The notes beneath the pieces were generated by a model. It saw only the letters and a program-made list of their open reading frames with translations, had not been told where the DNA came from and made no database searches. Shown piece by piece: positions 9,475-55,800 of a DNA stretch of 64,000 bases. Made by a program: the position numbers and the translations under genes. The stretch spans positions 1 through 64,000 of the forward strand of contig CALDZJ010000035.1 in NCBI GenBank assembly GCA_937944055.1. The letters run 5' to 3'. Numbering within the stretch: position 1 is the first letter of the stretch; every line of letters starts with the position of its first letter. This DNA comes from an uncultured Verrucomicrobiales bacterium (lineage in GTDB: Bacteria > Verrucomicrobiota > Verrucomicrobiia > Verrucomicrobiales > Akkermansiaceae).

Positions 9475-9479
9475 AAGAA

Positions 9480-10946: not shown

Positions 10947-10958
10947 GATTGGGGGGAA

Positions 10959-35671: not shown

Positions 35672-37981
35672 ATGAAATTCCCGTTCTTTAAAACTATCGT
35701 TAGTCTTGCTGGGCTAGCCTCGCTCAGCTGCATGAGTGTATCGGCCCAGATTATTTACTCCGAAGATACTGACCTCTCGCTGAAGCTGAGCCGCACGGAT
35801 AATGCGACGATCAGTAGTAATGGCCCTAATGAGACTGCTAATCCGGTTGGTAAAAGTGGTGCCGGAAGTGGCTTTGACCGCGCCGCAGTCTTCGTATTTC
35901 AAATTCCTGATTTAGGGGCTATGGATAACCCTTTCGGGTCAGCCTCGCTTGGGCTCTTTCTGTTTCAGGATACCGCAGATGCCGCAGTCAATGGCGATCT
36001 CTACGGTCTAGGACGCCGTGCTTCTTCAGAAGTGCTTCTTGATGATTATTATGGCCGGGAGGCCGCGGCTGATCCGACTGATGCGACTTTAATTCAGGAT
36101 AATTTTTTAACGGCGGGAGGGTCTCCTGTGAATGCCCTGACAGCAACTTCATCTGAAGGTTCTCAGGCGCTCGCTGATTATCTGAACGCCCAATATGAGG
36201 GTGGGGCAGGGATCGGCCAGTATGTCTTTTTAAGGGTGAATACGGATGCTGATACGACGCGTCGATGGAACTTCACTTCTGTGAATGGTGCGAATGGTGA
36301 TCTTTCAATGACTCCTCAATTGAGTTTCTTAGTGGCTAGTGATCCTGTCGATACGATTCAAGTCGAGACTGCCGCCGATGGTAGTGGAACTTTGATCGCC
36401 GATCAGACCTTGATCGCGGGTGAGTCTCTCACGGCTTATGCGATCGGTCGCAGTGCGGATGGGGCATTTATTGATAATGTGCCGGTCTCTTGGTCATTGG
36501 CTGGTGTTACGGGAGATGTCGTGGCTGGCGATCTTGCCGTGTCGCCGGATGGCTTGAGCGCGACTTTTCAGGCAGCTGCGCCTGGAGCGGGTGAGATTAC
36601 GGTTCAAGGAAATGCCGCCACCTTAGTCGGCTCGGGAGTGATCACGGTCGAGCAAGGACCTGCCGTGGAAGTGACGGTGGAAACTGACGCAGACGGTTTC
36701 GGGGTTCCGCTTGAGGAGCGTTTCATCATCGTGGATCAGACCTTGAGTCTCTTTGCGATTAGCCGCGATGCAGGAGGGAATTTTATCGAGACGATACCAG
36801 CCACTTGGAGCTTGGTGGATGCCGAGGGAGATATTGTTGCGGGTGATTTGGTCCCTGCTGGGGATGGCTCAAATGCGGTCTTCACGGGTAACATGATGGG
36901 GACGACTCGTATCCGTGCTTCCGTGGCAGGTCTGGAGTCAGTTGATTCGGGCATTGTGACCGTTGCAGAGCTGGTCAACCGTTGGGATGACGGTGGCCGC
37001 TTTACTGACTTAGGCATCGCCGAAAACTGGTTCGCAGACACGGAGCCGCTCTTTGATAACACCACCGATCTGATCTTCCATAACTCGGTGACGAGCCGCC
37101 TGAATCCATATTTGGGGCAAGATCGCACCATTCGCTCACTTAACTATGATGCCGATGCTGACTTATTCTTCAATATTGGCCTCACCGTGAATGGGACGTC
37201 GGGTGCTGCGAGTTTAACCTTTGATACAGATTCCGAGACGGAGCCTGCGGAGATTAATATTGATGCCGATTCTACGGGCACTTTCCGCCTCGGGCGAGTG
37301 GTCGCACCTGACTTGAACGAGTATGGCTCGATCATTTTGGCTGACGATCTCTTGATCACTCACGATGGTTCCGGGACCTTGAACATTGATGGTGATATCA
37401 CCGAGCTAGATGGCTCGCGCGGAGTGACGAAGGCTGGCTTCGGGACCGTTCTGATGACAGGGACGAATTCTTATACCGGTGATACTACCGTGACTGGGGG
37501 AGTGCTTTCTGTAAATGGGATGTCTCTCTCAGACAGCGGGGCACTGGTGATTGATGGCGGTATGGTTGAAGTGCAGGGCGATGAGATTGTCGCGGAGCTC
37601 TTCATCGGTGGAGTAAGATTGGCTCCGGGAGTTTACGGGAGCAGCTTCTCAGCAGCGCCGCTCGAGAATCAGGATGACATTAGCTTTACCGGAAACGGAA
37701 CGATCACGGTCATGGCGCCGCCTTCTACCGGTGTTCCAGAGATCACCAACATCAGCTTCGATGGTCAGAATTTCACGCTTACGTGGACTTCGAGCCCGGG
37801 TGAAATTTTCAACTTATTCTACTCGCTAGACTTGGTTGATTTCAGCATGGGAGCTGAGTTTGGCATTGAGTTAGATGATGGAATTATCGCCGGTGATGGG
37901 AATAGCACGGAAGCGATCGTGCCGATGAGTTTCTTAGGCCCAGATGTCCGAAAGGCTTTCTTCCGAGTGGTCCGCGAATAA
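35672..37981 (+). CDS. Secreted protein with DLYGLGRR module, Ig-like repeats and beta-strand repeat
   Basis: A 769-residue exported protein with a signal peptide (to SVSAQ). Residues about 25-230 hold the module marked by AVFVFQIPDLG, DLYGLGRRASSEVLLDDYYG and YVFLRVNTD that recurs in two genes downstream. Two Ig-like (Big-type) units follow (about 232-435; each opens VETAADGSG / VETDADGFG and contains WSLAG / WSLVDA). Then comes an autotransporter-associated beta-strand repeat (GTVLMTGTNSYTGDTTVTGG, about 590-610) and a short C-terminal beta module ending KAFFRVVRE. No outer-membrane barrel is present, so this is not a classical autotransporter. Probably surface-exposed. Its own promoter region carries the dyad operator shared with the sulfatase. 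Confidence 0.82.
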   Translation: MKFPFFKTIVSLAGLASLSCMSVSAQIIYSEDTDLSLKLSRTDNATISSNGPNETANPVGKSGAGSGFDRAAVFVFQIPDLGAMDNPFGSASLGLFLFQDTADAAVNGDLYGLGRRASSEVLLDDYYGREAAADPTDATLIQDNFLTAGGSPVNALTATSSEGSQALADYLNAQYEGGAGIGQYVFLRVNTDADTTRRWNFTSVNGANGDLSMTPQLSFLVASDPVDTIQVETAADGSGTLIADQTLIAGESLTAYAIGRSADGAFIDNVPVSWSLAGVTGDVVAGDLAVSPDGLSATFQAAAPGAGEITVQGNAATLVGSGVITVEQGPAVEVTVETDADGFGVPLEERFIIVDQTLSLFAISRDAGGNFIETIPATWSLVDAEGDIVAGDLVPAGDGSNAVFTGNMMGTTRIRASVAGLESVDSGIVTVAELVNRWDDGGRFTDLGIAENWFADTEPLFDNTTDLIFHNSVTSRLNPYLGQDRTIRSLNYDADADLFFNIGLTVNGTSGAASLTFDTDSETEPAEINIDADSTGTFRLGRVVAPDLNEYGSIILADDLLITHDGSGTLNIDGDITELDGSRGVTKAGFGTVLMTGTNSYTGDTTVTGGVLSVNGMSLSDSGALVIDGGMVEVQGDEIVAELFIGGVRLAPGVYGSSFSAAPLENQDDISFTGNGTITVMAPPSTGVPEITNISFDGQNFTLTWTSSPGEIFNLFYSLDLVDFSMGAEFGIELDDGIIAGDGNSTEAIVPMSFLGPDVRKAFFRVVRE

Positions 37982-38048
37982 TTTCAGAGTTTGATAAATC
38001 GCGCCGAGGTTTAAGATGCTAGGCTTGAGCTTCACACGCATTGATCAA

Positions 38049-41000
38049 ATGAAATTTCCACTCGTTCATGGCCTATTGATAGCCCTGCCTCTCGTGAGTG
38101 AGGCAGGGTTACTTATTAATGAACTCTCAGCGGCTCACTCGGATCACCTTCTCGTCCGCGAAGCGGGGGAGTATCCTCGGGTGGGAAATACTCTTCCTTG
38201 GCGTCGTGCGGATTATGATGATTCGGGGTGGAGGTCTGGAGATGGGCCTTTTGGTTCGGGGGTTTCTGGTCTCGCGCTTGGTACGGATGTGACGGCGGAG
38301 GTGCAAGGGAGCACGCCCACGCTCTACCTGAGAAAGAGCTTCAACGTTTCGGCTGCTAGTGCGGCGAGTAATGCCACCTTACAGCTGGAAGTCAGTTATG
38401 ATGATGGCTTCATCGCCTTTCTAAATGGAGTGGAGGTGGCTCGTCGGGGAATGGGCTTTGAGGGGATGTTCGCCTACCATGATCAAGTCGCTTATAGCAC
38501 GCATAGTCCCTCGTCACCCATTACGCTGGATCTTGGGGTGGCGAGTTCCCTCTTGCAGAGTGGTGATAATTTGCTCTGCGTGCAGGTCCACAATCAAACG
38601 GCCTCGCGCTCTGGTGATCTCTATCTCGATGCGAATTTAAAGCTTTCGAGCGGTGCGACTCTCGTGACTGGTGACAGCGCTTGGAAATACTTCGCCGGGC
38701 GGGCGGCCCCTTCCGGAGGTTTGTTGGATTATGGCTTACTGGAGGCTGGGGTGAGTGAGGGGCCGGATGTGAGCTGGGGTGCCATCTCCTTTGATGACTC
38801 GACCTGGCTCACGGGGAACGGGCCGGTGGGCTTTGATGCGAGCAGCCCGGCCGATTACGTGTTAGGAACAGACCTCCTTTCTCAAATGAGAAACGTGACG
38901 CCCTCAGTCTATATTCGGCATAATTTTGAGGTCTCGCAGGCCGAGGCTGATTCAGCCTTTCCGCTCTCTCTGAAGGTCGACTTTGATGATGGCCTAATCG
39001 TTTATTTGAATGGATTTGAAATTTACCGCGATAATGTTGGGGCGGCCGGAGTGGTCACGGGGCATGGGGTGTCTGCCGATGGTAATCACCCCGCAAGTGG
39101 TGATAATGGGAGCACCCTTGATCGTTCCGTAAGACTCAACTTGGCGGCAGCTCGTGAGCTTTTAGTGGCTGGGGATAATGTCATCGGTATCCAATTGCAT
39201 AATGCCTCAGCGGGAAGTTCTGACTTGATTGGAGAGGTCACGCTGGAGAGCACTGGAGCGAGCGCTCGGACCCTTGTTTCTCCGACTGATCCCTTGCGAT
39301 ATTTTGTGGGAGTTGAGGAGCCTGCTCCCTTTGTGGGGGAGGATGATTTAGGGCCGATTGAAGAGCCTCTGGACTCCGAGAATGACTGGATTGAAATTTA
39401 TAATCCTGATGATTTTCCGGTTTCTTTATCTGGCTGGTTTTTGAGTGATGATCCCTCCGATGTCCAGAAATGGACCTTCCCGGCAGATGCCGTGATCCCA
39501 GCGCAGGCTTACTACGTTGTGATGGCAAGCGGGCTGAGTCTGAGTCCGAGCCGAGACGGGACGAGCTTTGCGCACAGTAATTTTAAGTTATCGGCGGGGG
39601 GTGATCATGTCATTTTGACGCGACCTGACGGGAGCGTGGTCGATCAATTAGAGTCCGAGTATCCGCCACAGACTTGGCGCTACACCTACGGAAGGCAGGC
39701 GGATGGAAGCTGGGGTTACTTATCACTGGGGACCCCGGGAGGGGCAAATATCGGACCAGCCCTCGAGGTGGCTCCCGCACTCCCGCAACCGAATCTCGCC
39801 GGAGGATTTTATGCCACGGGCCAAAGCATCTCACTCACATCGACTAGCCCCGGTGCGAGTATCCGCTTCACGACCGATGGGAGAGATCCCTTGGAAGGTG
39901 AACTCTACACGGGGCCGATTTTCATCAATGAGAATACCGTGATTCGGGCGAGGTCATTTGCGCCGGGTTCTATTCCCTCGGCGGTCATCACGCACACATA
40001 TCTGATCAATCAGGGGGCCGCTTTTCAAAGTCTCCCCGCTATGATCCTGAGCGGTGATCCCGAGAAGACCTTTTATGGGCCGAATACGGCGGGAGGTCCG
40101 GAGAAGGGGGAGGGGATTTTTGCGATCAATGGAGGCAGCTACGCAAGTGGCAGCTGGAAGACCGAGGGCGAGAATCTCGCCTTTAACAATGCGGCAGGCA
40201 GCGGCCGCGCCAATGAAAAATACGGCGCGTTGGAGTATTTGCCCCTGAGCGGGGAGGCTCTTCGCAGCGAGCTGGGTATGCGAGTGGCCGGAAGTGGCCA
40301 TACCCGCGTGAGATTAAGAATCACGGATTCGATGGAGGACCCCTTCACCTCAAATTCTACGTCATCGACGAAGTTTCAGAAGCCCTCGCTCAATATCTTC
40401 TTCCGTCCGGAGTTCGGGGATCGTCCGATCAATTACCCATTTTTCGGGAGTCAGACCGTGACGGAGTTCGATAGCCTGCGCGTCCGGGCTGGGAAGAACG
40501 ATTGGTATAATCCCTTCATTAAAGATGAGCTAATGAGGCGTCTTTTTATCAATACCGGACAGATGGGGAGCTACGGAGCAATTCATACTCTCTGGATCAA
40601 TGGGATCTATAAGGGCTATTATAATAGTGCGGAGCGGGTCCGCGAGGGCTTCATGCAATCGCACTATAATAGTAAGGCCGCTTGGGATGTGCAGCAGGTG
40701 AATTCTTTTTCGAGTGGTGATCCGATCAATTGGAATAAGATGATGACTTATCTGAGGACGGCGGATCTGACGACGGTGGAGGGCTATGCGGGGGTTCTTG
40801 ATTACCTCGATGTCGATAACTACATCGACTATATTTTGGTCAATGCCTATGCCGCGATGGGAGACTGGCCTCATAATAATTGGATCGCGGCAAGGGAGCG
40901 GACTTCGCTCGGGCGTTGGCGATTTTATGTCTGGGATGCTGAGGGCTCGTTTGGGTTTTCAGGACGGAGCACCAGTACGAACACCTTCACGGAGCAGCTG

Positions 41001-43478
41001 ACTTTGCCCAATAACCGCTTTTCCACGGGTGACGCTCGCACCACCAATACTCAATACATTCAAGCCATTTACACCTTACTTAAGGAGTCGCCAGAGTTCC
41101 GCTTACGCATGGCAGACCGAGCGCAGAAACATCTCTATCATGGTGGCGCTCTCGTGACCTCTCGCATTAGCGAGGTTTATAACGAGCTTCGGAATGAGGT
41201 CACTCCTTTGATCGAGGAGACGATCGGTGGTTCATTTCGCGATAATTTCTACACGTCTTGGATTGCTAATAATCGACGATTTGATGCGCTGTCAGGTCAG
41301 CTCGTCAGCGAGGGGGCTTGGCCCGCCGTGGAGGCTCCGACTTTCAGCCAGAATGGGGGAGAAATCACTCCCGGATTTCAGCTCAGTATGAGCCATCCTA
41401 ATGTGGGAGGAATGATTTACTTCACGACTGATGGCTCTGATCCGCGCGAGCTTGGTGGAGCGATCGCGGGGCTGCCCTACGAGGAGCCGGTGACGCTGAA
41501 TGATGATCACCGAGTGCGGGCCCGCGTTTTACAAGCTGGCACCTGGAGTCCGGAGCTGGATTTTGAATTTTCACTCCCTTTTGCCAATCCCACCTTCATG
41601 CCACTGGCGAGCGCCGATTGGACTGCTGATGATAATTGGTCTAGCGCTCCGGCGGCTTATCCGAATGGGAGCGGAGCCATCGCGGTCGTGCCGGGAGCTG
41701 CGGCGGCCTCGCGCAATGTCGAACTCCGCGCAGCGGTGAGCATCGGCACTCTCCAATTCGATCTCGCCAGCACCGATCAGCGTAGCCGTGTGCGCGATCG
41801 TGGCACCGGGAATACTCTCACTTTTTCTGATCCAGATGGGACGGCTGAAATCCAAGTGACGGGTGAGGCTGAAGGCTTTGCGGAGTTGGAAGTGGAAGCC
41901 GGGACGATCCTTGCCAGTGATTTAAGATTAGAAATTGAGAATCAAGCTGGCGACTCGGAGCATGGGGCCTTGAGATTACGAGGTGAGATCACTGGGCCGG
42001 GGGACTTGATCAAAGCTGGGCCGGGGATTGCCAGTCTCACAGGGAGCGGGAAAAGCTACACTGGGGCCAGCGTGATCGAGCAGGGGGTCTTGCGAGTCAG
42101 CGAGCCGGCGGCACCAGATGCGACGAGCTCGCTGGCGGTTCTCGCAGGGGGGCAGCTTCGACTCAGTTCGGGAAATGGCCTGGGAGAACCTGCGCGAGAT
42201 TACGCTTTTGGAGGGCCTCTCAGCTTGTCTGGGAACGGACGTGGCCCTGAAATCGCCGATGCTGCGGGGAACGGAAAATCCGGAGCGCTACGTTACGAAG
42301 CGGGCAGCTCGCAAAATCACGCCATTATTTCTACGCCGGTCGTTCTGGCGGGAGCGGCGGGAATCCATGTGGAGGGATCGACGAATCTTTTGGAGCTAGC
42401 AATTGGGCTCACTGGGGACGGCCCCTTGAGAAAATCTGGGGGTGGGACTCTGCGATTAGCGGGTGATCAGAGTGGGCATTCTTATCCCATTTCGGTGGAG
42501 TCTGGGACGCTGGAGTTGCAGGGGACAGCCGCCTCGCCGATTCAGTTGAGTCCTAGCGCGGTTCTCAGCGGTTACGGCGAATCGGGAAGTATTAGCGGGG
42601 AGGGGAACATTACTTTGAATCAGCGCTTACTGCGTGCGCCCGCCTCGAATGCTAGCCATTATTCCTTTGTGTTTTCTGAGAATGGCTCGCCTGATTTGAG
42701 TCAAGCGAGCTTCTCCGGCAATGCGGCGATTTTGTTAGCAACAGTTCCCACCGGGGTTTTGCATCTCGATTTTTATCTCAGTGGATCAGCGCAGGCTAGT
42801 GAGGCGGTTTCACGAGGGGGCTTGATCGTTCCGGCCTCGCTTGATCTGGAAGCGGTGATTTCCTTGCCCCAAGTGAGAGTCTTCACCGCAGACCCCGCGG
42901 GGGAGCACGAGTTCGAAGGGCAAAACTGGCGAGCGGTGCAGGATTTTAACTTAGCAGTGGTGGAAATGAGCACGGAGGAGGCTGCTCCTTTTTCACAAGT
43001 CCGCCTGCTTGAACTCACCAATGAAGGAGAGACCTTTGCCTCCTTTGCAGCTTGGCAAGAAGCTCATTTTAGCCCAGCGGAATTGGCTGATCCAGAGGTC
43101 TCGGGCGCGGGTGCGAGTCCTTACGGGGATGGAATCGCGAATCTTCTTCGCTACGCCTTCGGAGTGCCAGAGGGTGATAGCCTAGCTGGCTATGAAGCCC
43201 GCCTTGTGCCTCGTGGCTCTCTTTCTCCTTCGTCGCCAGCTGCTTCCTCAGGGCTGGCTCTGAGTTTCCCTTATGATGCGAGGCGGAAGGGGATTTCGCT
43301 GAAGGTGGAGTCGAGTGACCTGCTGGATGATTGGTCAAATGCGGTCGTTCTTTTTGACTCCGATGAGGCTTCATCTGGGGATACGATCGCGAATGCACGT
43401 AACGGTCGGGTGCAGGTTAACGACCCTCGCGGGGAGGCGATCCGGAGGTTTTATCGAGTCCGAGTCACCGAAAACTAG
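38049..43478 (+). CDS. Giant secreted CotH-family protein with lamin-tail and beta-strand repeats
   Basis: An 1809-residue protein, started at 38049 (MKFPLVHGLLIALPLVSEA, signal peptide). Two similar beta domains (about 20-400; YDDGFIAFLNGVEVARRG and FDDGLIVYLNGFEIYRDN) precede a lamin-tail domain (GWFLSDDPSDVQKWTFP) and a chitobiase-like unit (SIRFTTDGRDPLEGELYTGP). The CotH kinase-like domain (about 650-1060) has the RFYVWDAEGSFGFSG box. A second chitobiase-like unit (YFTTDGSDPRELGG), beta-strand repeats (TGSGKSYTGASVIEQGVL) and a C-terminal Verrucomicrobia-type module ending RRFYRVRVTEN follow. CotH proteins can phosphorylate other proteins; substrates here are unknown. Follows the previous gene by 67 bp. 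Confidence 0.88.
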   Translation: MKFPLVHGLLIALPLVSEAGLLINELSAAHSDHLLVREAGEYPRVGNTLPWRRADYDDSGWRSGDGPFGSGVSGLALGTDVTAEVQGSTPTLYLRKSFNVSAASAASNATLQLEVSYDDGFIAFLNGVEVARRGMGFEGMFAYHDQVAYSTHSPSSPITLDLGVASSLLQSGDNLLCVQVHNQTASRSGDLYLDANLKLSSGATLVTGDSAWKYFAGRAAPSGGLLDYGLLEAGVSEGPDVSWGAISFDDSTWLTGNGPVGFDASSPADYVLGTDLLSQMRNVTPSVYIRHNFEVSQAEADSAFPLSLKVDFDDGLIVYLNGFEIYRDNVGAAGVVTGHGVSADGNHPASGDNGSTLDRSVRLNLAAARELLVAGDNVIGIQLHNASAGSSDLIGEVTLESTGASARTLVSPTDPLRYFVGVEEPAPFVGEDDLGPIEEPLDSENDWIEIYNPDDFPVSLSGWFLSDDPSDVQKWTFPADAVIPAQAYYVVMASGLSLSPSRDGTSFAHSNFKLSAGGDHVILTRPDGSVVDQLESEYPPQTWRYTYGRQADGSWGYLSLGTPGGANIGPALEVAPALPQPNLAGGFYATGQSISLTSTSPGASIRFTTDGRDPLEGELYTGPIFINENTVIRARSFAPGSIPSAVITHTYLINQGAAFQSLPAMILSGDPEKTFYGPNTAGGPEKGEGIFAINGGSYASGSWKTEGENLAFNNAAGSGRANEKYGALEYLPLSGEALRSELGMRVAGSGHTRVRLRITDSMEDPFTSNSTSSTKFQKPSLNIFFRPEFGDRPINYPFFGSQTVTEFDSLRVRAGKNDWYNPFIKDELMRRLFINTGQMGSYGAIHTLWINGIYKGYYNSAERVREGFMQSHYNSKAAWDVQQVNSFSSGDPINWNKMMTYLRTADLTTVEGYAGVLDYLDVDNYIDYILVNAYAAMGDWPHNNWIAARERTSLGRWRFYVWDAEGSFGFSGRSTSTNTFTEQLTLPNNRFSTGDARTTNTQYIQAIYTLLKESPEFRLRMADRAQKHLYHGGALVTSRISEVYNELRNEVTPLIEETIGGSFRDNFYTSWIANNRRFDALSGQLVSEGAWPAVEAPTFSQNGGEITPGFQLSMSHPNVGGMIYFTTDGSDPRELGGAIAGLPYEEPVTLNDDHRVRARVLQAGTWSPELDFEFSLPFANPTFMPLASADWTADDNWSSAPAAYPNGSGAIAVVPGAAAASRNVELRAAVSIGTLQFDLASTDQRSRVRDRGTGNTLTFSDPDGTAEIQVTGEAEGFAELEVEAGTILASDLRLEIENQAGDSEHGALRLRGEITGPGDLIKAGPGIASLTGSGKSYTGASVIEQGVLRVSEPAAPDATSSLAVLAGGQLRLSSGNGLGEPARDYAFGGPLSLSGNGRGPEIADAAGNGKSGALRYEAGSSQNHAIISTPVVLAGAAGIHVEGSTNLLELAIGLTGDGPLRKSGGGTLRLAGDQSGHSYPISVESGTLELQGTAASPIQLSPSAVLSGYGESGSISGEGNITLNQRLLRAPASNASHYSFVFSENGSPDLSQASFSGNAAILLATVPTGVLHLDFYLSGSAQASEAVSRGGLIVPASLDLEAVISLPQVRVFTADPAGEHEFEGQNWRAVQDFNLAVVEMSTEEAAPFSQVRLLELTNEGETFASFAAWQEAHFSPAELADPEVSGAGASPYGDGIANLLRYAFGVPEGDSLAGYEARLVPRGSLSPSSPAASSGLALSFPYDARRKGISLKVESSDLLDDWSNAVVLFDSDEASSGDTIANARNGRVQVNDPRGEAIRRFYRVRVTEN

Positions 43479-43686: not shown

Positions 43687-43766
43687 ATGAGACCTTCATT
43701 TCGCAAAGATGTTTGCACTGGGGTTTTCATCCACACGCACAACATCAACTCGAAAAAGACAAAATA

Positions 43767-44537
43767 ATGACAACTACAACTAAAACATTTTCAGCAGTCA
43801 TGGTTAGCGCCATGGCAGGATCGCTGAGTGCTTCCGGCGCGATTCTTGTCGCCGGCATAGATACATGGAGCAGCACGACTGCTCCTGCCGTGACGAATAC
43901 GGCAGCGGGAATTACCGCGACCGCCACTGCTTCTACTTCATCTGGGGCTTGGTCGATCACGGATAACGTAACGGATCCCGGCCGTGGCTCAAGTGAAGAT
44001 GGTACTTGGGGAACTTTCGACGGGAGTGGGACTGCTGCCAGCACCGTGACGAACCTCGGAGTAGAAAACTTTACCGTGACGAACGGGCGGCCCTCAGCTG
44101 AGGTCACTCTGACGATCGTAAACGGGGGAACTGATGATTTGAATTTGGCAGCCTTCCATTTAGATGTGGTTGCTTTCCGCCCAAACGCTCCTCGCACCTA
44201 TGCTCTCAATGTCTTGGCGGGTAGTGACATCACGGTGGGTAATGTCTTCACCTCTCCTACGACAGCCATCACCCATCTCGGTGGGGGGCTGTCGGGTCAT
44301 GATCAGCATGATGACATTGACCTCGATCTGAGCGCTCTTGCCGATAGCACTCTTTCTCCGGGAGAAACTGCAATTCTTCAGATTGCCTTCTCAGACGGAA
44401 CGGGCTCCGGTGGAGGTCACCACCTCTTCCTCGATAACGTCGCTGTTTCTGGTGACTTCGTGACGGTTCCTGAGCCTTCTTCAGCAATTTTGCTGAGTTT
44501 GAGTGGACTGGCTCTTCTTGGCCGCCGTCGTCGATAG
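43767..44537 (+). CDS. PEP-CTERM sorting-domain protein, first tandem paralogue
   Basis: A 256-residue exported protein, started at 43767 (MTTTTKTFSAVMVSAMAG) to give a compact signal peptide ending near SASGA. The body (about 30-230) runs from AGIDTWSSTTAPAVTNTAAG through GRGSSEDGTWGTFDGSGTAA, DVVAFRPNAPRTYALNVLAG and GHHLFLDNVAVSGDF. The C-terminus is a textbook PEP-CTERM signal: VPEPSSAILLSLSGLALLGR with RRRR. Family knowledge: exosortase cleaves or handles this tail during export. No exosortase is in the window. Its neighbour at 45015 is a close copy, and the same body module ends the protein at 52807. Confidence 0.92.
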   Translation: MTTTTKTFSAVMVSAMAGSLSASGAILVAGIDTWSSTTAPAVTNTAAGITATATASTSSGAWSITDNVTDPGRGSSEDGTWGTFDGSGTAASTVTNLGVENFTVTNGRPSAEVTLTIVNGGTDDLNLAAFHLDVVAFRPNAPRTYALNVLAGSDITVGNVFTSPTTAITHLGGGLSGHDQHDDIDLDLSALADSTLSPGETAILQIAFSDGTGSGGGHHLFLDNVAVSGDFVTVPEPSSAILLSLSGLALLGRRRR

Positions 44538-44549
44538 AGTATTATTGTG

Positions 44550-45014: not shown

Positions 45015-45782
45015 ATGAAAGCAGAAATTTCAGCATTAGCCTTAATTTCAGCAAGCTTACAGAGTGCTTCAGCAGCTACTCTTATTGCGGGGATTGATGC
45101 ATGGGATAGCGTCTCTGCTCCAACCGTAACTCACACCCTAGCAGGGATCACGGCAACGGCGACTGCTTCTGCCTCTACCGGATCTTGGTCTAATGATGAT
45201 CGACCTTCAGATTTAGGCCGGGGCTCTAGCGGAGACGGCACTTGGGGGAATTTTGATGGGAACGGAGTTGCCGCAAGTACGGTCACAAGCCTGGGTGTTG
45301 CAAGCTTCACGGTAACGAAAGGGCGCCCGTCCGCTGAGGTGACTCTTACAATCGTCAATAACGGGACGGGTGATTTGGATTTAGCAGCCTTCCACCTCGA
45401 TGTCGTCGGCCTGCGCCCGAATGCCCCTCGGACTTACGCTCTAAACGTCTTGTCAGGAAGTGATATCACCGTGGGGAATGTTGTAACTTCGCCTACGGGT
45501 GCCATCACGAGTCTCGGTGGGAGGTTGTCAGGGCATGACCAGCATGACGATATCGATATCGATCTGACTGGTCTTGCTGACCATACCCTTGCGGTGGGTG
45601 AAACCGCGATCATTCAGATCGTCTTTTCAGACGGGACTGGTTCAGGTGGAAATCACGATCTCTTCCTCGACAACCTCGCTGTTTCTGGCGCGTTCATGAA
45701 TGTCCCAGAACCTTCTTCAATGATCTTACTCTGCTTGGCTGGATTTGCGCTTCTTGGTCGCCGCTTTCGATCGGGGCTTTGA
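45015..45782 (+). CDS. PEP-CTERM sorting-domain protein, second tandem paralogue
   Basis: A 255-residue exported protein with a signal peptide (to SASAA) and the same body as its upstream neighbour: AGIDAWDSVSAPTVTHTLAG, GRGSSGDGTWGNFDGNGVAA, DVVGLRPNAPRTYALNVLSG and DLFLDNLAVSGAF. It ends with VPEPSSMILLCLAGFALLGR and RFRSGL, a PEP-CTERM signal. It is a tandem duplicate of 43767-44537, with differences spread along the length, so the duplication is not very recent. It is followed after 99 bp by a multi-domain secreted protein. Confidence 0.92.
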   Translation: MKAEISALALISASLQSASAATLIAGIDAWDSVSAPTVTHTLAGITATATASASTGSWSNDDRPSDLGRGSSGDGTWGNFDGNGVAASTVTSLGVASFTVTKGRPSAEVTLTIVNNGTGDLDLAAFHLDVVGLRPNAPRTYALNVLSGSDITVGNVVTSPTGAITSLGGRLSGHDQHDDIDIDLTGLADHTLAVGETAIIQIVFSDGTGSGGNHDLFLDNLAVSGAFMNVPEPSSMILLCLAGFALLGRRFRSGL

Positions 45783-45881: not shown

Positions 45882-48800
45882 ATGAAACATTTTGTCATCG
45901 CGTCTCTCTGTTTGTGCGGAGGCTTACTCGCCCAGATTTATCAGGAAAGTGGCGGCTTGGTCGTGATGGAGGTTGAGGAGACGGCCTCGCCCTTAGGTCA
46001 GTGGGAGCGGCAAAGTGTTCTGCCGGGATATTCTGGGGCTGGGTATTTGCAGTTTTTAGGAAACAACTTCGAGAATGGACCGGCGGCGTCTCCTTTAGAA
46101 TTTCAATTTCAGATTCAGCAGAGTGGCCTTTACGCCCTGCATCTGCATTGCGCCAAGGAGACGCATGAGGGGCGCAATGATGTTGCTAATGACTGCTATG
46201 TGCGGGTGGAGGGCGATTATCAAGCAGGCCCGGGTCCACATGAGGGGCACGGGGATCATGCATCGCTCGCCTTACTGCGAGCTGATACTAAGTATTTCGG
46301 TGGCGCTACGGATGCTTGGAAATGGGAGAATGGGGAAGATAGCTCCGGAGGTGCGGGAAACCTCGATCCTGGTGGGCACCAGAATAAGAGAAAGGCCGTT
46401 TATGATTTTAAGGCAGGGGAAACTTATAAGTTGATTATTTCAGGGCGGTCTCAGTTTTTCCGCCTCAATCGGATTGTGTTCCGCCATCGCGGGACGCTCG
46501 CCAGTCTGGCGCAGGATCTTGAGACGCCGCAGTCAGCATTGTTTTCGGCGGGGAATCGCATCCGTTATGAGGCCCTCAGTGATTTTCCTGAGATTGAAGG
46601 GGGGGAGGTTCCGTATTACCGAGATCGTGGCAATGGGGCGCTGGCAATAGCGGCAAATGTCATCGCGAATCGTAGTGGCTTTGCGAGAGCAGAGAGGGCC
46701 TTCGATGGTCCTGCTGGGACTTATCGTGTGACTCTGACGACCATGACCGAGGAGGATGGTGAATCGATCTACCGTCTCTTGGTCAATGGCGAGATTGTGG
46801 CCACTTATCGTAATCCTTCTGTCTATGATCCGCCGGATTCTCCGCTCGATCTCTCTCCAAATACCCACATTTGGGAGGGGATCAGGGTTCCAAGTGGCGC
46901 GAGCATTGCAATCGAGTCGAACGCCGATACGAACGGGGAGATTCCGGAGGGTGATGGGGGTGGAACGGCTTGGGCACGCGGGCGCTGGACTCAAATTGAG
47001 TTTGCTAATTCTGCGGCCACGGAGGGCGGGGTGGTTAATCCTCCACCTGGCAGGCTGGCGATCGTGTCGGATGGAAACTCGCCGGACCCTGATGATATTG
47101 GCGCGAAGGCTGTGATGTTTGGGATCCTAAATGGAGCCGGTTTGCAGGATCGCCTCGTGCATCTCTCCCATTCTTGTGACCTTGATCCTTTTTCGAATCC
47201 GGGGAGCCAGACGATCGATGCGGCAAATGAACTGCGGCGTCAGGAGAAATTGCACGAGCTGACGGGCGAGGGAATCGCCTTCTACGGGCCCTTCCCGAAT
47301 TTGAAGGCTTTTTATAATTGCCGGACTGATCAAGAGGCGGCGATCAATGATTTACGCGACGCGATTAATGCCTCCTCGGCGAGTGATCCGCTATGGATTG
47401 TGGAGGGGGGAGAGCCGGATCTTATCGGGTATGCGTTGGAGGCGGCTATCGCCATGAAGCGGCAATTCGTAAACCTCATTTCTCACCATCCGGCGAATGA
47501 TAATAGTGGTGATTTTTTCACTTGGCAGGAGATTTTAGACTACGGGGTTACGGAGCATCAAATCGGGGATCAGAATGTCGGCTTGCAGGTCCTGATTAGC
47601 AGTGGGCTTTGGGACTGGGCCGAGAATCATCCTCAAGCGGAGATTGCGTGGATTTGGGATCAGCTCAAATATGCCGAGCAGGATGGCGTGGTGAGATTCC
47701 AGACGAACAAGTTCGATTGCTCAGATGCGGGGATGGTTTATTGGTGGTTAAATGGAGCGAGCAATGGGGGGAATCGTCACGCCACTCCGGTCGAAATGAG
47801 AGCTCTCTTAGAAGATGGCCGTCCGCGCCTTGCAGAGCTGATGCTCGGGGAGCTGTCCGATGCCAGCGTGAAGGAGGATGAGAGTCCCGTGGATCAGCAA
47901 AAAGAAACGACCTTGCTGGGAGCGGGGGGGCGTGATCCTTGGGTCGATCGAGCCACCGTCTTCGTTTTCAGATTACCGGATCTCGGTGAGGTGGAGCAGC
48001 CTTTTGCGAGCAGTTCCTTCATCTTCGATTACGCTGCGAAGCAGGGGGACTTGAAAACTAATGATCTCTATGGTCTGGGGCGGCGGGCTTCTGCTGAGGT
48101 CTTGGGGAGTGACTACTATGGCCAGACTGAGGTGCTGGATTCTTCTGATGCGAGTCGGCTGCAGGAGGGGATCTTGACCAATGCCACCCCTCTGGGCCTC
48201 GTGCAGACCTCGGGCGCAGGGAGTGCGGCGCTCCGCGATTATCTGAACCTGCAATATGATTCAGGAAAAGGAATGGGTGAATACGTCTTCCTGCGTTTGA
48301 ATACCTCGCAGGCGAAGAGTGGGATTCACCGAGCGAGTTTGACGATGACGGAGGGTGCACAGGCGAGCCCGCTCGATACCCGGCCGCGCATCTCTTATAC
48401 GAGGAAGCTTCCGGCGGAAGAAAACGGACCGGTGGCGCATTGGAAGCTCGATGAGGGGAGCGGGACGCTCGTGCGGGATGCCTCTGGGAATGGTCACCAA
48501 GGAACTCTCCTTAATGGGGTGAACTGGGAGAGCGATGAGACCCGCCCCACTTATGTGTCCTTTGACGGCACGGATGACCGGATCCGCACCCTCTTCTCCT
48601 ATGCGCTCACGGCTGAGAGTGACTTCACCTGGGCTTGGTGGGCGAAGCCGGCTGCGGAGACTTTTCCCGGCTCGATCATGCTGGGAAATCGCTTTCCGCA
48701 GGGTGCGCCGGGAGAGACGTTCGAGTTTCTCAAATTCACCCCCGGAGGAGCTCAATTTTCAAATACCGATGAGGTTGCGGCGATTGAGCGCTACTCCTAT

Positions 48801-49472
48801 GCGGCGCCGGTCGCGGGAGCATGGCATCACTACGCGATGGTGAAGCGTGGCACGAGCTATCAATGGTATGTTGATGGGGTGGCGCAGGGAGCAGCGCGGC
48901 GGATTTTATATGATGAGTCAGTGCCGATTCCGTTTTTGATCGGCGGGGATGATGATGGAAGTGGCTCTAAGGTGAATGAACACTTTGAAGGGGGGATTGA
49001 TGATGTTGTGCTTTATTCGCGGGCTCTCTCGGAGAAGGCGGTGCAAGGGCTGCGGGAGGGGGAATATCACCCAGAGGAGCTAACGCAACTCGAGACGTGG
49101 AGGGAGCGTTACTTTGGCTCAAGTGAGAATCAGGGAATGGCGGCGGACTCTGCTGATGCGGATGGAGATGGCGAGACGAACCTGCTGGAATTTGCCACGG
49201 GGCAGGATCCGATGGGTCAGTCGCAAACGAGGACTCCGATGAAGTTGCGGGATGGTGAATTGGAATTCCGTTACTCGCGGAGCAAGGCTGCGGTGGCGGA
49301 TGGGGTGAGCTTTTTAGTGGAGTGGAGTGGCTCGCTTCTGGATCACTCGTGGACTGCTCTGGGAGTTCTTGAGACTTTGGAGTCAGAGGACCAAGAGCTA
49401 GAACACATCTTGGCGACTCTTCCGCGAGGTGAAGAGGAAAAACGCTTCGTCCATTTGCGGGTGCAGAACTAA
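45882..49472 (+). CDS. Large secreted protein with nucleoside-hydrolase-like, DLYGLGRR, LamG and C-terminal modules
   Basis: A 1196-residue protein, started at 45882 (MKHFVIASLCLCGGLLAQ, signal peptide). An N-terminal carbohydrate-binding-like region (about 25-370; YALHLHCAKETHEG) precedes a DUF1593/nucleoside-hydrolase-like domain (about 380-625; LAIVSDGNSPDPDDIGAKAV with Asp-rich metal-type loop). The DLYGLGRR module follows (about 660-830; RATVFVFRLPDLG, DLYGLGRRASAEVL). Then a LamG-type lectin fold (AHWKLDEGSGTLVRDASGNG, about 835-1030) and the terminal module with DADGDGETNLLEFATGQDP and KRFVHLRVQN. First of three large genes in one direction. Enzymatic substrate is not known. Confidence 0.8.
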   Translation: MKHFVIASLCLCGGLLAQIYQESGGLVVMEVEETASPLGQWERQSVLPGYSGAGYLQFLGNNFENGPAASPLEFQFQIQQSGLYALHLHCAKETHEGRNDVANDCYVRVEGDYQAGPGPHEGHGDHASLALLRADTKYFGGATDAWKWENGEDSSGGAGNLDPGGHQNKRKAVYDFKAGETYKLIISGRSQFFRLNRIVFRHRGTLASLAQDLETPQSALFSAGNRIRYEALSDFPEIEGGEVPYYRDRGNGALAIAANVIANRSGFARAERAFDGPAGTYRVTLTTMTEEDGESIYRLLVNGEIVATYRNPSVYDPPDSPLDLSPNTHIWEGIRVPSGASIAIESNADTNGEIPEGDGGGTAWARGRWTQIEFANSAATEGGVVNPPPGRLAIVSDGNSPDPDDIGAKAVMFGILNGAGLQDRLVHLSHSCDLDPFSNPGSQTIDAANELRRQEKLHELTGEGIAFYGPFPNLKAFYNCRTDQEAAINDLRDAINASSASDPLWIVEGGEPDLIGYALEAAIAMKRQFVNLISHHPANDNSGDFFTWQEILDYGVTEHQIGDQNVGLQVLISSGLWDWAENHPQAEIAWIWDQLKYAEQDGVVRFQTNKFDCSDAGMVYWWLNGASNGGNRHATPVEMRALLEDGRPRLAELMLGELSDASVKEDESPVDQQKETTLLGAGGRDPWVDRATVFVFRLPDLGEVEQPFASSSFIFDYAAKQGDLKTNDLYGLGRRASAEVLGSDYYGQTEVLDSSDASRLQEGILTNATPLGLVQTSGAGSAALRDYLNLQYDSGKGMGEYVFLRLNTSQAKSGIHRASLTMTEGAQASPLDTRPRISYTRKLPAEENGPVAHWKLDEGSGTLVRDASGNGHQGTLLNGVNWESDETRPTYVSFDGTDDRIRTLFSYALTAESDFTWAWWAKPAAETFPGSIMLGNRFPQGAPGETFEFLKFTPGGAQFSNTDEVAAIERYSYAAPVAGAWHHYAMVKRGTSYQWYVDGVAQGAARRILYDESVPIPFLIGGDDDGSGSKVNEHFEGGIDDVVLYSRALSEKAVQGLREGEYHPEELTQLETWRERYFGSSENQGMAADSADADGDGETNLLEFATGQDPMGQSQTRTPMKLRDGELEFRYSRSKAAVADGVSFLVEWSGSLLDHSWTALGVLETLESEDQELEHILATLPRGEEEKRFVHLRVQN

Positions 49473-49546
49473 GGCAAGCTGTCCCTTAAAGATGGGACAT
49501 GGGGGATCATCGACAAGAGGCTCTATTCAGTCTTAAACTTAGAGTG

Positions 49547-52500
49547 ATGGGGCGGAGTTATTCATTCATTTATCCTTGGCTGGTGAGCCTCGCGGTGGGC
49601 TTGCTGGGCGCTCGCGCGATGGCCCTTCCCGTGATCAATGAAATCATGGCGAATAACCAGAGCACCTTAGCTGATCCGCAGGGTGACTTTGATGACTGGG
49701 TGGAAATCTATAACCCGAGTGCGGAGCCGCTAGATCTGGGCGGATATTACTTCAGCGATGATCCAGAGGATCTTACAAAATGGCAAATCCCGCGAAATGC
49801 CGGAGTGGTGATCGCGGCCGGAGGATACGGTGGGCTTTGGCTAGATCATGAGAGTGAGGATGGGCCAGATCATGTGGGATTGCGTCTCGCAGCGGAGGGG
49901 GATGAACTCATCCTGACGGCTCCAGATGGCTCAAGCGTGCTGGACCGAGTGAGCCTCCCGCCGCAGCATCCGGATATTTCTTACGGGCGTGATGAGGGAA
50001 CAGGTGAGTTACGCTACCTCATTAATCCGACGCCGGGACGGGTCAATGACCCAAGGGGAGTGACGCTTTTAGAAGGGGTGAATTTTTCACAGGAAGCCGG
50101 AACTTTTGAGGGGGAGTTTGAACTCATTTTAGGGACCAGCTCCGCAGGGGCGACGATCCGTTTCACACTCGATGGGTCACGGCCATCAGGCGCAGGAACC
50201 TTGACCTATGAGGGGCCGCTGAGCGTGAGTGCGACTGCCTGCGTGCGAGCTGCTTTATTCTTGGAGGGGCGACAAATCAGCCCGGTGGAGAGTCGCGTTT
50301 ATCTGAAGGTGGATGCGAGTTTGCGAGGCTTTGATTCTAATTTGCCCATCATCTTGCTGGATAGTCAGGGCTATGACTTTGCGAATGATGATGACCCGCG
50401 CACGGACTATCCTGCTCAGCCCGTTTGTGCGGGGGTCTTTGAAAGGGAGGAAGGGGGGCGCGCCAGTGTCATGGGGGTTCCGCATTTTACGGGACGCGCG
50501 GGGATGAATGTGCGAGGGGCGAGCAGTAAGACTTATCCGAAGAAGCAGTTTAAGTTCGAGACTTGGGATGAGGATGATGAGGATCGTGATGTCTCCTTGC
50601 TGGGAATGCCTGCCGAGTCTGATTGGCTACTACAAGCGCCGTACTTTGATAAAACATTAATGCGTAATGAGTTCATCTTTCATTGGTGGCGTGCCTTGGG
50701 GTATTACTCACCGAGAACTCGCTACGTTGAGGTGTTCCTGAATCCTAATCCAGGTGAGCCCTTCAGTCTTTCCCACTATCAAGGGGTCTATTTATTGACG
50801 GAAAAAATTAAGCGTTCTAGGGAGCGGGTGGACTTGACTCGGCTGGATGAAGGGGACGAGGCGGAGCCAGAAATCACGGGAGGCTATCTCGTGCAGGCGA
50901 CGAATCTGAACGAGGATTGGGTCGGTGAGGAGGGCACACGTTATAAATATGTCGATCCGGGAGGGGAAGGATTGCTCAGTGTCCAGCAAGGGTGGTTGCA
51001 GGATTACATCGATGCGGCTGAGGCCTCAGTCTATACTCCGAATTTCGCGGACCCTGAGGAGGGTTATGCTAAGTATCTGGATGTCTCATCACAGATCGAC
51101 TACGACATCATGCGTGAGTTGAGCCGCAATACCGATGGAGCCAGCACCTTCTTTTCGATCGATCGCGGCGGGAAAGTGACGATGGGGCCACTGTGGGATT
51201 ATAATCAGGCTCTTGGTCTAAGCTCGTTGGGGACTGCGGAGCTGGGCTTTGGCTATGAGACCTTCGGCTGGAATCAATTTTATATGAGAGCGGGGCATTG
51301 GCTTGCTTGGTGGAATGAGCTGGATGATGACCCGAGCTACCAACGAGCTTGGAATGATCGCTGGGTGGCACTGCGTGAAAGCACCTTCACGACTGAGCAG
51401 CTTTTAGGAAAGATCGACGCGGATGCCTCTCTTTTAGAGGAAGCTCAAGTCCGCAACTTTGAAAAGTGGGACATTCTAGGAAGAGCTGTCTATGTGGTGA
51501 ATGGTCGCACCCGTGCGGACCCCGGTGATCTTGATCGCGATCGCTATGATAAGGAGGTGAGCTTCCTGCGCGATTGGGTCGAGGGGCGCGTGGCGTGGAT
51601 CGATTCTCAAGTGCCATCGCCCCCTGATTTTTCACGAAATGGGGGCGCGGTGCCTCAGGCTTATCCCTTGGTGATGAGCACGGGGACGAGTTTTGCCCCT
51701 TTTGCGGGTGATATTTTTTACACCACGGATGGGAGTGATCCAGCGCTGCTCGGGGAGAGTGCGCAGATCTACTCGCAGCCTCTCTCGCTCACTGCGCAAG
51801 TGCGGGTGAAGGCGCGCACACGGAACCGGGTGGATGGAAGCTGGGGGGCGCTGCGGGATGCCACCTTCGTGGTGGGGACCGAGCCGCCCACCAGCCTGAA
51901 TCTCGTGATCTCCGAGATTCATTATAATCCAAGGGGGAGTGATGATTTGGAGTTTCTCGAGCTGATCAATCGCGGGGAGAGCGCGGTGAATCTTACGGGG
52001 CTGCGGCTCGCGGAGGCGGTGGACTTTGAGTTCCCCGCGCTGGAGTTAGCGCCGGGTGGGGCAGTGGTGGTGGTGGAGGATGAGGAGGCCTTCGCTGCTG
52101 AATTTTCTACGATGGGGGCTCCTCGTTTTACCCAAGGCTTAGTGATCGCGGGGCAGTGGACGGGGCGCTTGGGGAATGGTGGTGAAAAGATTGAGCTCAT
52201 CGATGCGGAAGGCACGCTCCTGCACGGGGTGACGTATGAGGAAGCTGGGAGCTGGCCGAGCGAGGCCGATGGTGAGGGCTTTTCTTTACAACTCAGGGAG
52301 CTGGCATCTGACCCTGCGCTTGCTGAGAACTGGGACCTGAGCGTGTTGGAAAATGGCAGCCCTGGGCTCTCGGGGTCACAAGTCCTTATGACTTTTACGC
52401 AGTGGTTGGAGCGGCATTTTACAGCGGGGGAGCGGGAGCAAGCTCAGCTGAGCGGCCCGGACGCAGATCCCGATGGGGATGGCTTTTCCAATCTCACTGA

Positions 52501-52810
52501 ATACGGCTTGGCGAGTCTTCCGAGAGCGGCAGCGTCGCAACCTCAGATCGCGTCAGCAGTGGAAGAACTAGAGCAAGAAGCTGGGCGCTACCTCACTCTG
52601 ACTTTTCGCCGTCCCGTGGGCTCCGAGCTGCAATACGGTCTCGAGACGTCGCCAGATCTGAGAGCTTGGGAAAGTCATCCCTTGCGCCGAGTCAGGGGCA
52701 GTGTGAACTTTCAAACACAGACTGAGACGATCACCGTGCGGGCTCCGCACCCGATTGAGAGCGGTCATGAAGGTCAGCGCCAACTCCTGAGAATCTATTT
52801 TTCAAAATGA
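49547..52810 (+). CDS. Secreted CotH-family protein with lamin-tail domains
   Basis: A 1087-residue protein, started at 49547 (MGRSYSFIYPWLVSLAVG, signal peptide). An N-terminal lamin-tail domain (VINEIMANNQSTLADPQGDF, about 30-180) and a chitobiase-like unit (IRFTLDGSRPSGAGTLTYEG) precede the CotH kinase-like domain (about 275-640): MNVRGASSKTYPKKQFKFE, YQGVYLLTEKIKRSRERVDL, TMGPLWDYNQALGLS. A second chitobiase-like unit (FYTTDGSDPALLGESAQIY), another lamin-tail (VISEIHYNPRGSDDLEFLEL) and the terminal DADPDGDGFSNLTEYGLASL module follow. Paralogue of the 38049 protein but shorter and without beta-strand repeats. Overlaps the next gene by four bases (ATGA). Confidence 0.9.
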   Translation: MGRSYSFIYPWLVSLAVGLLGARAMALPVINEIMANNQSTLADPQGDFDDWVEIYNPSAEPLDLGGYYFSDDPEDLTKWQIPRNAGVVIAAGGYGGLWLDHESEDGPDHVGLRLAAEGDELILTAPDGSSVLDRVSLPPQHPDISYGRDEGTGELRYLINPTPGRVNDPRGVTLLEGVNFSQEAGTFEGEFELILGTSSAGATIRFTLDGSRPSGAGTLTYEGPLSVSATACVRAALFLEGRQISPVESRVYLKVDASLRGFDSNLPIILLDSQGYDFANDDDPRTDYPAQPVCAGVFEREEGGRASVMGVPHFTGRAGMNVRGASSKTYPKKQFKFETWDEDDEDRDVSLLGMPAESDWLLQAPYFDKTLMRNEFIFHWWRALGYYSPRTRYVEVFLNPNPGEPFSLSHYQGVYLLTEKIKRSRERVDLTRLDEGDEAEPEITGGYLVQATNLNEDWVGEEGTRYKYVDPGGEGLLSVQQGWLQDYIDAAEASVYTPNFADPEEGYAKYLDVSSQIDYDIMRELSRNTDGASTFFSIDRGGKVTMGPLWDYNQALGLSSLGTAELGFGYETFGWNQFYMRAGHWLAWWNELDDDPSYQRAWNDRWVALRESTFTTEQLLGKIDADASLLEEAQVRNFEKWDILGRAVYVVNGRTRADPGDLDRDRYDKEVSFLRDWVEGRVAWIDSQVPSPPDFSRNGGAVPQAYPLVMSTGTSFAPFAGDIFYTTDGSDPALLGESAQIYSQPLSLTAQVRVKARTRNRVDGSWGALRDATFVVGTEPPTSLNLVISEIHYNPRGSDDLEFLELINRGESAVNLTGLRLAEAVDFEFPALELAPGGAVVVVEDEEAFAAEFSTMGAPRFTQGLVIAGQWTGRLGNGGEKIELIDAEGTLLHGVTYEEAGSWPSEADGEGFSLQLRELASDPALAENWDLSVLENGSPGLSGSQVLMTFTQWLERHFTAGEREQAQLSGPDADPDGDGFSNLTEYGLASLPRAAASQPQIASAVEELEQEAGRYLTLTFRRPVGSELQYGLETSPDLRAWESHPLRRVRGSVNFQTQTETITVRAPHPIESGHEGQRQLLRIYFSK

Positions 52811-55800
52811 ACCTAAGAAAATTCCCCGCATTATTCCTCGGCTTTACGCTCACGCTGAGTCATCTGAACGCTTACGAAGTGTGGATGGGCACACATTTAT
52901 CGACCAGTGAGATGGCCACCACGGGGCTCCCCGATTGGGCGCTGACGGCGGCGCAGCTCGAGGGCTTTAATGTGAACCGCGCACCGCATGATACCGATCC
53001 GGCTTCTAATAATGATTACCGCACGATCGTGTCGCAATTTACGAATGCTCGCAGCGTAATGACGGAGTTTGCGCGCTCGACGGCGACGCGTGATCCGGAG
53101 AAGACCGATGAGCTGGCCTTTCCCTCGATCCGAGATCGGCTGGAGGTGATTTTTGCGAACGAGCGGAACTTCTCCTACCAGTTAGACATTCTGATGTTCT
53201 ACGACGAGCGGGGGACCTTTCAGGGGCAGGAGTTTCTCTACGAATGGTCTGAGGTGGAAATTCAGTTCCTGCGCGACTGGTTAGATGAAAACGGGCAGGC
53301 GGATGTGGAGCTGATGTGGAATGTCCGTAATAATGGGGTGCGCAGCCGAGCTTTAGCAGCGCATCCGCTCGTGGACTCGGTGGAGATCGAGGCCAGCACG
53401 ACGGCCTTGCTGAACAACACGAATAATCAGATCACCTTCTTGGAGTGGTTTTGGAACGCTCCAGAGACGGCAGGGAAGAAGCTGGGGCTGCAAATCCCCC
53501 GGGCCCTCCCTGGCGATCCGCTGAATCAATATCAGGGAACCCGCCGCGTGGCTCAGATGCTTGGCGAGGTTTTAGGCTATCATGATGATGGGATCCGGAG
53601 TGATCGCCTCGTCTTCTTACCGGTCACTTATAATGATAATTTCCCCTACCTGCCGGAGACGATTTCTAATGGCGAGGCCTACACCAATACTCTGACCAGC
53701 ATTGCGCTCTCTCTACTCGAGCAGCGCTCCTTGTTTGAGGGGCGCTCGCGCATTCCCACCTTGGCGGATGCTGATCGCACGGAGCGCTTGTTCGCTCCCA
53801 GCGTGGGAACGATTGGCGATCAAGTGGTCTCTTTTGGGAGCGCCACGGAAGCACTTACTTTTTCCTTGAGTGATGACGCCACTCCGGCGAGCGCTTTGAC
53901 CATTCTTAAAAATTCCTCGAATCCGAGCTTAGTTCCTTTGGAAAATATCGTCATTGCGGGAGATGGCGGGACCCGCAGTGTCACCGTCACCCCGGCGGTT
54001 GGACAAAGCGGAAGTGCGGAAATCGAGCTTTGGGTGAGCGATGGCGCGCTAGCCTCGCCAATTACTTTTGAGATGACGGTGCTGCCCTCCGGCTTGGCAC
54101 CTGGCACGATGCTTAGTCTGGCGGCCGATGCCTCGATCACGGAAAATCCCTCGATTGAAAGGGCCGGAAGTAGCACGGTGGATCTGGGAGCGCGGGGGAA
54201 TGCCCCATGGGTGGAACGTTGCACGGTCTATGTTTTTCAGCTCCCGAATTTAGGCCAAGCGAGCGCTCCGTTTGAGGAGGCTGACTTTCGCTTCGAGTTC
54301 GTCGGAAAGAATACGAGCTTACGGGGGCACGATCTTTATGGCCTCGGGAGAAGATCTAGTCCGACGGTGCGGGTCAGCGATTTTTACTCCCAAACCGAGG
54401 TGGCAGATCCGAGTGATGCCACGCGCCTCCAGCAGTCGATTTTGACAAACAATACCCCACTAGGCTTGGTCTCGACCAGCGCCGGAGGAAGCACGAATTT
54501 GGTCAATTACTTGAATGAACAATACGCGAATGGGGCGGGGATCGATCAATACGTTTTTCTGCGCCTTAATACGCGTGCCCCTAAATCGGAGTTGAATTTT
54601 GCGACTCTTACGATGTCGGAAGGTGGGGTGATGAGTCCGCAAGATACCCGCCCGCAGATCACTTATCAGGCGCTGAGCCCGGCTCCTAGTATTTCGCAAA
54701 TTCCGGCCCAATCGTTGATCGTCAATAGTGCTCCGATTACGCTGCCATTCACGATTTCTGATCCCAATCTTCAGCCAGATGACTTGGTCCTTAGCGCGGA
54801 TTCGAGCAATCAGGAGCTCATCAATCGTAGCGCGATTCACTTTGGAGGGGAGGGGGGAAATCGCACGATCACGCTGCCCTTGCGTCCGGGGCGCTTGGGA
54901 ACGAGCGAGATCACGATTGAGGTGAGCAATGAGTCCTTCAGCGAGGAAATGACTTTTACGGTTTTTGTCGATGGCTTGAGGCAGGTCTTGGCGGGGTGGG
55001 ATCAATGGGGGAGTGGAACTGCTCCAGAGCCCAGCGTGAGTGCCTTAGGTATCGTAGCCACCGCGACGTCCTCGACCTCTGGAGTGTCTTGGAGTGCTGC
55101 TGATAATGGGGGGAGTGGTCGTGGATCCAGCGGAGACCAGACTTGGGGTTCTTTTGAAAATAGCGAGACTCCCGCAAGTACGACACTCACTGGCCTTGGC
55201 GCAAATTTCACGGCGCTCAATGGTGTGAGTGAGGCCGAGCTCACCTTTACTCTTAGCAATAATGGGATTGCTGATTGGGATTTACGAGGCTTCCACATGG
55301 ATGTGATTGCTTTCCGCCCTAATGCGCCACGTAGCTATCAGGTGGAAGTGCTGAGCGGGGATGTCACGCCGGGGGTGATCTTCACTTCAAGCGAGGATGC
55401 TATTCCGAGCTTGGGGGGCGTGCTCTCGGGGGAGCATGATGATCACGAGGAGGTCGATATCGACCTATCAAGCCTGCCTGATTCAGTGCTTGAGCCGGGC
55501 GAGACGATGGTCTTGCGGCTCGCTTTTTCCAGCGGAACGGGCGGAGGTGGGGGGCATCATCTCTTCTTGGATAATGTCGCCTTTTCGGGGGTGAGCGCGC
55601 CCTTGAGCGCCTTAGAGAATTGGCGTGAAGAGAACTTTGGCAGCGCGAGCCATCTTGCGGTAGCGGCTGATGGCTTTGATGCGGATGGCGATGGTGAAAG
55701 TAATCTGGTCGAATTTGCAACACGGCAGGACCCGAATGCGGGGACGCCCTTGCAGACGCGTTTGGAAGTCGGTGAGGATGGCGTGACCTTTTCTTTCGCG

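Follow-up and report, generated by a model that had tools for sequence, protein, structure and literature searches.

A Divergent DNRLRE/CBM96-Type Module, Probably Carbohydrate-Binding, Recurring in Three Proteins Secreted by a Verrucomicrobiota Bacterium

The closest described systems to the domain considered here are carbohydrate-binding modules (CBMs) of the DNRLRE/CBM96 type. CBM96 (PF24517), represented by TM6-N4 of the alginate lyase Dp0100 (7vbo), binds internal alginate chains and needs Lys10, Lys22, Lys25, Lys27, Lys31, Arg36 and Tyr159 to do so; Lys27 and Arg36 are relatively conserved among DNRLRE domains, CBM96 is related to the DNRLRE family NF033679, and S-layer and disaggregatase proteins also contain DNRLRE domains (PMC9971899). 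The module described in this study resembled CBM96 in its beta-sandwich, its size, its linkage to polysaccharide enzymes and the position of Arg36. It resembled NF033679 in a co-linear profile match, in the matches of its remote members and in the occurrence of both domains in the same polypeptides of one genome (G045), and it resembled 8wab, a structure named “DNRLRE domain-containing protein,” in fold (E 4.7e-5) and enzyme-linked context. However, it was set apart from CBM96 by the distinctive motifs DLYGLGRR, FQLPDLG, YLNxQY and YVFLR and by a helix at residues 125–142, it lacked the W-x-E...TWNN segment typical of canonical NF033679 members, and its identity to 8wab, with which it was compared by fold, was 13%.

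The module was found in a 64,000-nucleotide stretch of DNA (the window) as a domain of approximately 187 residues common to three secreted proteins, with pairwise identities of 37–53%. All genes of the locus lie on the forward strand. Copy 1 (35753–36334, 194 aa) immediately follows the signal peptide of gene 1 (35672–37981), copy 2 (47841–48401, 187 aa) lies between a DGNSPDPDDIGA domain and a LamG domain in gene 2 (45882–49472), and copy 3 (54109–54669, 187 aa) belongs to gene 3 (52807–55998). BLASTP aligned the copy pairs at 40% identity over 198 aa (E 8e-39), 41% over 182 aa (E 2e-35) and 53% over 192 aa (E 2e-69), and phmmer with copy 1 as query scored 123 bits against copy 2 and 110 bits against copy 3, where chance, as the best of 4000 composition-preserving shuffles, reached 9.7 bits. 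The recurrence in three secreted proteins proposed in the initial annotation was borne out, as the similarity was far above chance and all three host frames were open, each with a signal-peptide-like start. The motifs that it listed were found in the copies, DLYGLGRR being identical in all three (35996–36019, 48063–48086, 54331–54354), and the partners did differ from copy to copy (Ig/PATR; DGNSPDPDDIGA and LamG; TIM barrel and a PEP-CTERM-protein-like module), while the end that it gave to the region, 54700, fell just past the third module but not at the end of its gene. Throughout the assembly, which comprises 108 contigs and is 92% complete, there were exactly three copies, and the genome also has one canonical DNRLRE domain elsewhere (G000:C43).

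Superfamily placement and predicted fold

The absence of a named family held at the level of direct scans, as the three copies matched nothing in Pfam even at E≤10 and nothing in NCBIfam at E≤1. The window copies did not reach the gathering cut-off of Pfam CBM96 (PF24517), with no match at E≤10, and a canonical DNRLRE domain of the same phylum matched that family at 133.9 bits (6e-39). Among the module members scanned, the curated cut-off of NF033679 (34 bits) was not reached either, the window copies giving no match and the best relative 24.5 bits (E 2.4e-5). Sequence scans of the copies against the PDB were likewise uninformative; a galectin chimera (6m5y, E 0.005) was rejected as a chance hit covering about 37 residues at 8.7 bits per stretch, and “GH115_C” on one relative (L101) was disregarded because its score was below the cut-off.

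Comparison of profiles pointed to a known superfamily. In hhalign, where E-values apply to single comparisons, a 64-member module profile matched 19 same-phylum DNRLRE domains along the full length with a probability of 93.4% (E 2.4e-7), over 159 co-linear columns (4–185 to 6–168), and seven controls (LamG, the PEP module, the C-terminal tail, Ig, the DGNSPDPDDIGA domain, BNR and LTD) stayed at or below 0.5%. Homology of the module to PEP-CTERM or LamG domains was ruled out by these controls, at 0.1–0.4%. The 32-member profile alone gave 60–69%, indicating that the DNRLRE match grows stronger with sampling. Remote members supplied the bridge: one (L014) matched NF033679 at 2.4e-5 over nearly its full length, and further ones did so at 3.6e-4 to 0.03. 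Searches with the module profile and with NF033679 independently reached the same site (G045:C2:1034212-1034610), and on contigs C1 and C2 of that genome four long proteins (L014, L027, L032, L036), some with sortilin/BNR-like repeats, carried the module together with a canonical DNRLRE/CBM96 domain. Because canonical DNRLRE domains of the phylum matched Pfam CBM96 and, by sequence, both PDB CBMs (7vbo and 8wab), the chain of homology to CBM96 was closed.

Structure prediction, which the initial annotation had proposed as a check, returned a confident beta-sandwich of the CBM96 type. From the 32-member alignment, AlphaFold2 modeled copy 3 as a beta-sandwich with one long helix (pLDDT 95.3, pTM 0.91), and the only PDB matches with E<0.001 in Foldseek were three chains, namely 7vbo, the alginate-binding domain on which CBM96 was founded (E 1.6e-5, probability 1.00, TM 0.60), and chains A and B of 8wab, a CBM that binds chondroitin sulfate (probability 1.00), at just 12–13% identity. 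A TM of 0.60 with a high rmsd of 5.7 indicated the same fold with differing loops, and the loops are where ligand sites sit. In a viral structure library, a phage pectate lyase ranked first and a CBM96-annotated phage protein second and third.

The structure search, the profile–profile comparison and the bridging relatives together placed the module within the DNRLRE/CBM96 superfamily, of which it is almost certainly a divergent, previously undescribed branch. Convergence of an unrelated domain on a common beta-sandwich would agree with the low identity to 7vbo and 8wab and with the failure of direct HMM scans to recognize the window copies, but it is very improbable given the significant sequence links through remote members and an end-to-end profile–profile match with clean controls. 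The initial annotation, which had suggested an undescribed domain and had named a DNRLRE/CBM-type match as its refutation, was therefore right in part: direct library matches were absent and the subfamily is a domain family that sequence libraries miss, but the refuting match appeared one step out and the superfamily is known, so that the module is not categorically new. This placement weakened the claim of an undescribed domain and made the accompanying guess of glycan binding likelier.

Host proteins, relatives and locus

The protein of gene 1 combines the module with two Ig-like repeats and a PATR/autotransporter-type beta repeat, and profile scans recognized no catalytic domain in it. Gene 2, open from 45828 with a likely start at ATG 45882, encodes N-terminal beta domains, the DGNSPDPDDIGA domain, the module, LamG (Laminin_G_3; 48567–49046, E 7.2e-16) and a conserved C-terminal tail. 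The putatively catalytic DGNSPDPDDIGA domain (47010–47840) matched neither Pfam nor the PDB and was kept at 72–76% in four related genomes; its motif (47070–47105) is presumably nucleoside-hydrolase-like, a family assignment made without a profile match. Gene 3 encodes a predicted (beta/alpha) barrel (52867–53805; AF2 pLDDT 85.5; motifs AYEVWxGTHL ... LSLxEQRxLFEGR), followed by an Ig-like domain, the module, a second Ig-like domain, a PEP-CTERM-protein-like module (54985–55593) and a C-terminal tail. For this TIM barrel there was no Pfam family or close PDB match, Foldseek giving generic TIM barrels only, and it is possible that this secreted domain represents a new glycoside-active family. 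Its relatives occurred in 7 of 195 family genomes, and in the closest tier the TIM-barrel and DGNSPDPDDIGA domains were found in the same four relatives and the window genome among those 195.

Two other shared elements were observed in these proteins. A second recurrent module of about 205 aa (AGxDxWxSxxAP ... HHLFLDNVAxSG) lies at 43713–44537, 45015–45782 and 54985–55593, the first two places being the PEP-CTERM proteins and the third the homologous stretch of gene 3; about 19 copies occurred in the fetched loci, and it has no Pfam family. The C-terminal tail (YFGSxENxGxAADxxDxDGDGExNLLEFATGQDP; 49089–49469 and 55612–55995) is common to several of the secreted locus proteins and is perhaps a sorting or anchoring domain.

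The same locus encodes a sulfatase (32167–33645), a GH10-like glycoside hydrolase (33642–35540) and a CotH/LTD/Fn3-associated secreted protein (38016–43478), with orthologues at related loci of 60–64%, 57–59% and 61–66%, respectively, as well as the PEP-CTERM proteins (43713–44537, 45015–45782), a second CotH/LTD protein (49499–52810) and a BNR_4 propeller protein (56025–57740) adjoining gene 3. This propeller, of a type found in PL27, PL24 and GH145 and a partner of the module, not the module itself, had as its best solved relative the L-Rha-alpha-1,4-GlcA lyase 7esk (1.8e-47). The window protein has no module, but Haloferula rosea, Pontiellaceae and Roseibacillus each have a relative of it, at 62%, 54% and 54% identity, respectively, in which the module is present. 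Subsets of the locus (sulfatase, GH10-like, CotH, PEP proteins, TIM-barrel gene, gene 2 and BNR_4) recurred in four genomes (G278, G241, G460, G411), mostly at 46–73% identity, and a GH106 rhamnosidase lay near a module gene in another (G228). Marine Verrucomicrobiota/Akkermansiaceae have been reported to specialize in sulfated polysaccharides that contain fucose and rhamnose, in a paper whose text, as searched, does not mention CBMs (PMC8857213). The sulfatase, the propeller resembling a Rha-GlcA lyase and this specialization of Akkermansiaceae (PMC8857213) pointed to a substrate containing rhamnose and glucuronate and bearing sulfate; the locus may degrade a sulfated algal glycan of this kind, an assignment that we put forward tentatively and at somewhat less than even odds. 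Type II secretion/pseudopilin genes (N_methyl, T2SSK) lie just downstream (60541–62303) and are a possible export route. At the other end of the window, on the reverse strand, a defense cluster (1699–13358) comprises type I restriction-modification genes (HsdR, HsdM, HsdS), an RT_UG5-nitrilase-type reverse transcriptase (3570–6560; PADLOC 5e-258), an Mrr/PDC-S02 endonuclease and a Schlafen AlbA_2 protein.

The module was distributed patchily, both within Akkermansiaceae and among other Verrucomicrobiota. The window genome grouped with genomes of Haloferula and Roseibacillus and on that ground probably belongs to Akkermansiaceae. Whole-genome HMM searches detected the module in 15 of 388 phylum genomes and 28 of 195 family genomes, and a survey covering 84,980 species genomes, which detects close relatives only, returned Haloferula rosea, a Haloferula MAG, Roseibacillus persicicus and a Pontiellaceae bacterium; the phage and plasmid collections searched contained no relatives. 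Pontiellaceae belong to a different class, and the 54–66% similarity of the locus there suggests, from sequence comparison, horizontal transfer. Relatives fell into two tiers, one strong, with E from 1e-30 to 1e-100, and one remote, with E from 1e-3 to 1e-22; the remote relatives were often small stand-alone proteins of 220–300 aa. The module was fused to BNR_4-like propellers resembling the 56025 protein in three relatives (L004, L005, L008), and judging from the sequence the partner in L007 is probably such a propeller too. Fusions were also found to DUF5060/Collagen_bind_2 enzymes, to TIM barrels and to a Hepar_II_III_C-like domain, the last scoring just above the cut-off in L100 and just below it in L009. 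Ig-like/cadherin-like repeats often flanked the module, and four consecutive copies occurred in G460, L093, where a 1762-aa protein (L093:11146-16431) has a TIM barrel followed by the four in tandem. The topology of the module tree did not follow the partner: different partners were intermixed within starred clades, such as one uniting the window TIM-barrel protein with a BNR protein of G228 and a TIM-barrel protein of G278 (100/98). This mixing indicates that modules moved between enzymes, the number of moves being uncertain because many inner branches are open.

Ligand site and function of the module

Six of the seven alginate-binding residues of CBM96 were not maintained across the three copies, according to a mapping made by sequence and not by superposition. 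The equivalent of Arg36, Arg37 of copy 3, was kept in all three copies and in 18 of 22 core members, at the Lys27 position copy 1 has Lys whereas copies 2 and 3 have Ala, and the other five were not retained in the alignment of the copies. As the binding residues are mostly not kept, the ligand of CBM96 cannot be read across to the module; alginate binding by analogy was rejected and is not claimed. The module has (near-)invariant polar positions of its own (Asp75, Arg82, Asp91, Asn136, Tyr139 and Arg152), Arg81 of copy 3 being a further conserved polar residue, with conservation strongest in the hydrophobic/Gly/Pro core, and it has its own signature and a ligand site that probably differs from that of CBM96. 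The three copies were acidic (pI 4.1–4.9), as are many marine proteins, and at this pI polyanion binding by the module is not obvious.

We consider the module to be a secreted, non-catalytic CBM of a divergent DNRLRE/CBM96 branch that tethers enzymes to an anionic rhamnose/uronate polysaccharide, with a probability of roughly two in three. Carbohydrate binding itself is probable, and in relatives the module was found as a non-catalytic domain within carbohydrate enzymes, the corresponding partners in the window being putative enzymes. The module has been swapped among the extracellular enzymes of one putative polysaccharide-degradation locus, and under such a mechanism it would bind the polysaccharide that the locus degrades, concentrating the attached enzymes there; the target would probably be an anionic algal polysaccharide with rhamnose and uronate, probably sulfated, and gene 1 could act as a non-enzymatic binder.

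The position of the module between Ig-like/cadherin-like repeats and in tandem arrays, the conservation centered on its core, the presence of only repeats beside it in gene 1 and the loss of most CBM96 ligand residues would fit a structural spacer or surface-assembly domain, comparable to the DNRLRE repeats of S-layer and disaggregatase proteins, that provides stability or attachment and has no glycan ligand. However, repeated fusion to, and exchange among, polysaccharide-active folds within one locus speak against such a domain, and its sole solved homologues are CBMs, so we regard this explanation as unlikely. More unlikely still is a protein–protein docking domain that would assemble the locus enzymes on the cell surface or on CotH/PEP-CTERM proteins. 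Although several enzymes of one locus carry the module alongside a second common module (43713, 45015, 52807), and its fold weakly resembles TGF-beta-type prodomains (4ycg, E 3.2e-3), it was also found in genomes without the TIM-barrel and DGNSPDPDDIGA partners, its nearest structures are CBMs, and pairing of the cohesin/dockerin type was not seen.

A carbohydrate-binding role may extend further than the tethering reading, although we hold the extended form to be doubtful: the module would be the founder of a new family of CBMs, would have a ligand site of its own for a rhamnose/glucuronate sulfated polysaccharide, and would serve as an interchangeable targeting unit for the enzymes of one locus, while the TIM barrel of gene 3 (52807) and the DGNSPDPDDIGA domain of gene 2 (45882) would each represent a further new family active on polysaccharides. 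Current profiles overlook this CBM-type family; the module and its enzymes are specific candidates to assay for binding and lyase activity, and a family built on the module would let annotators spot this locus and similar ones.
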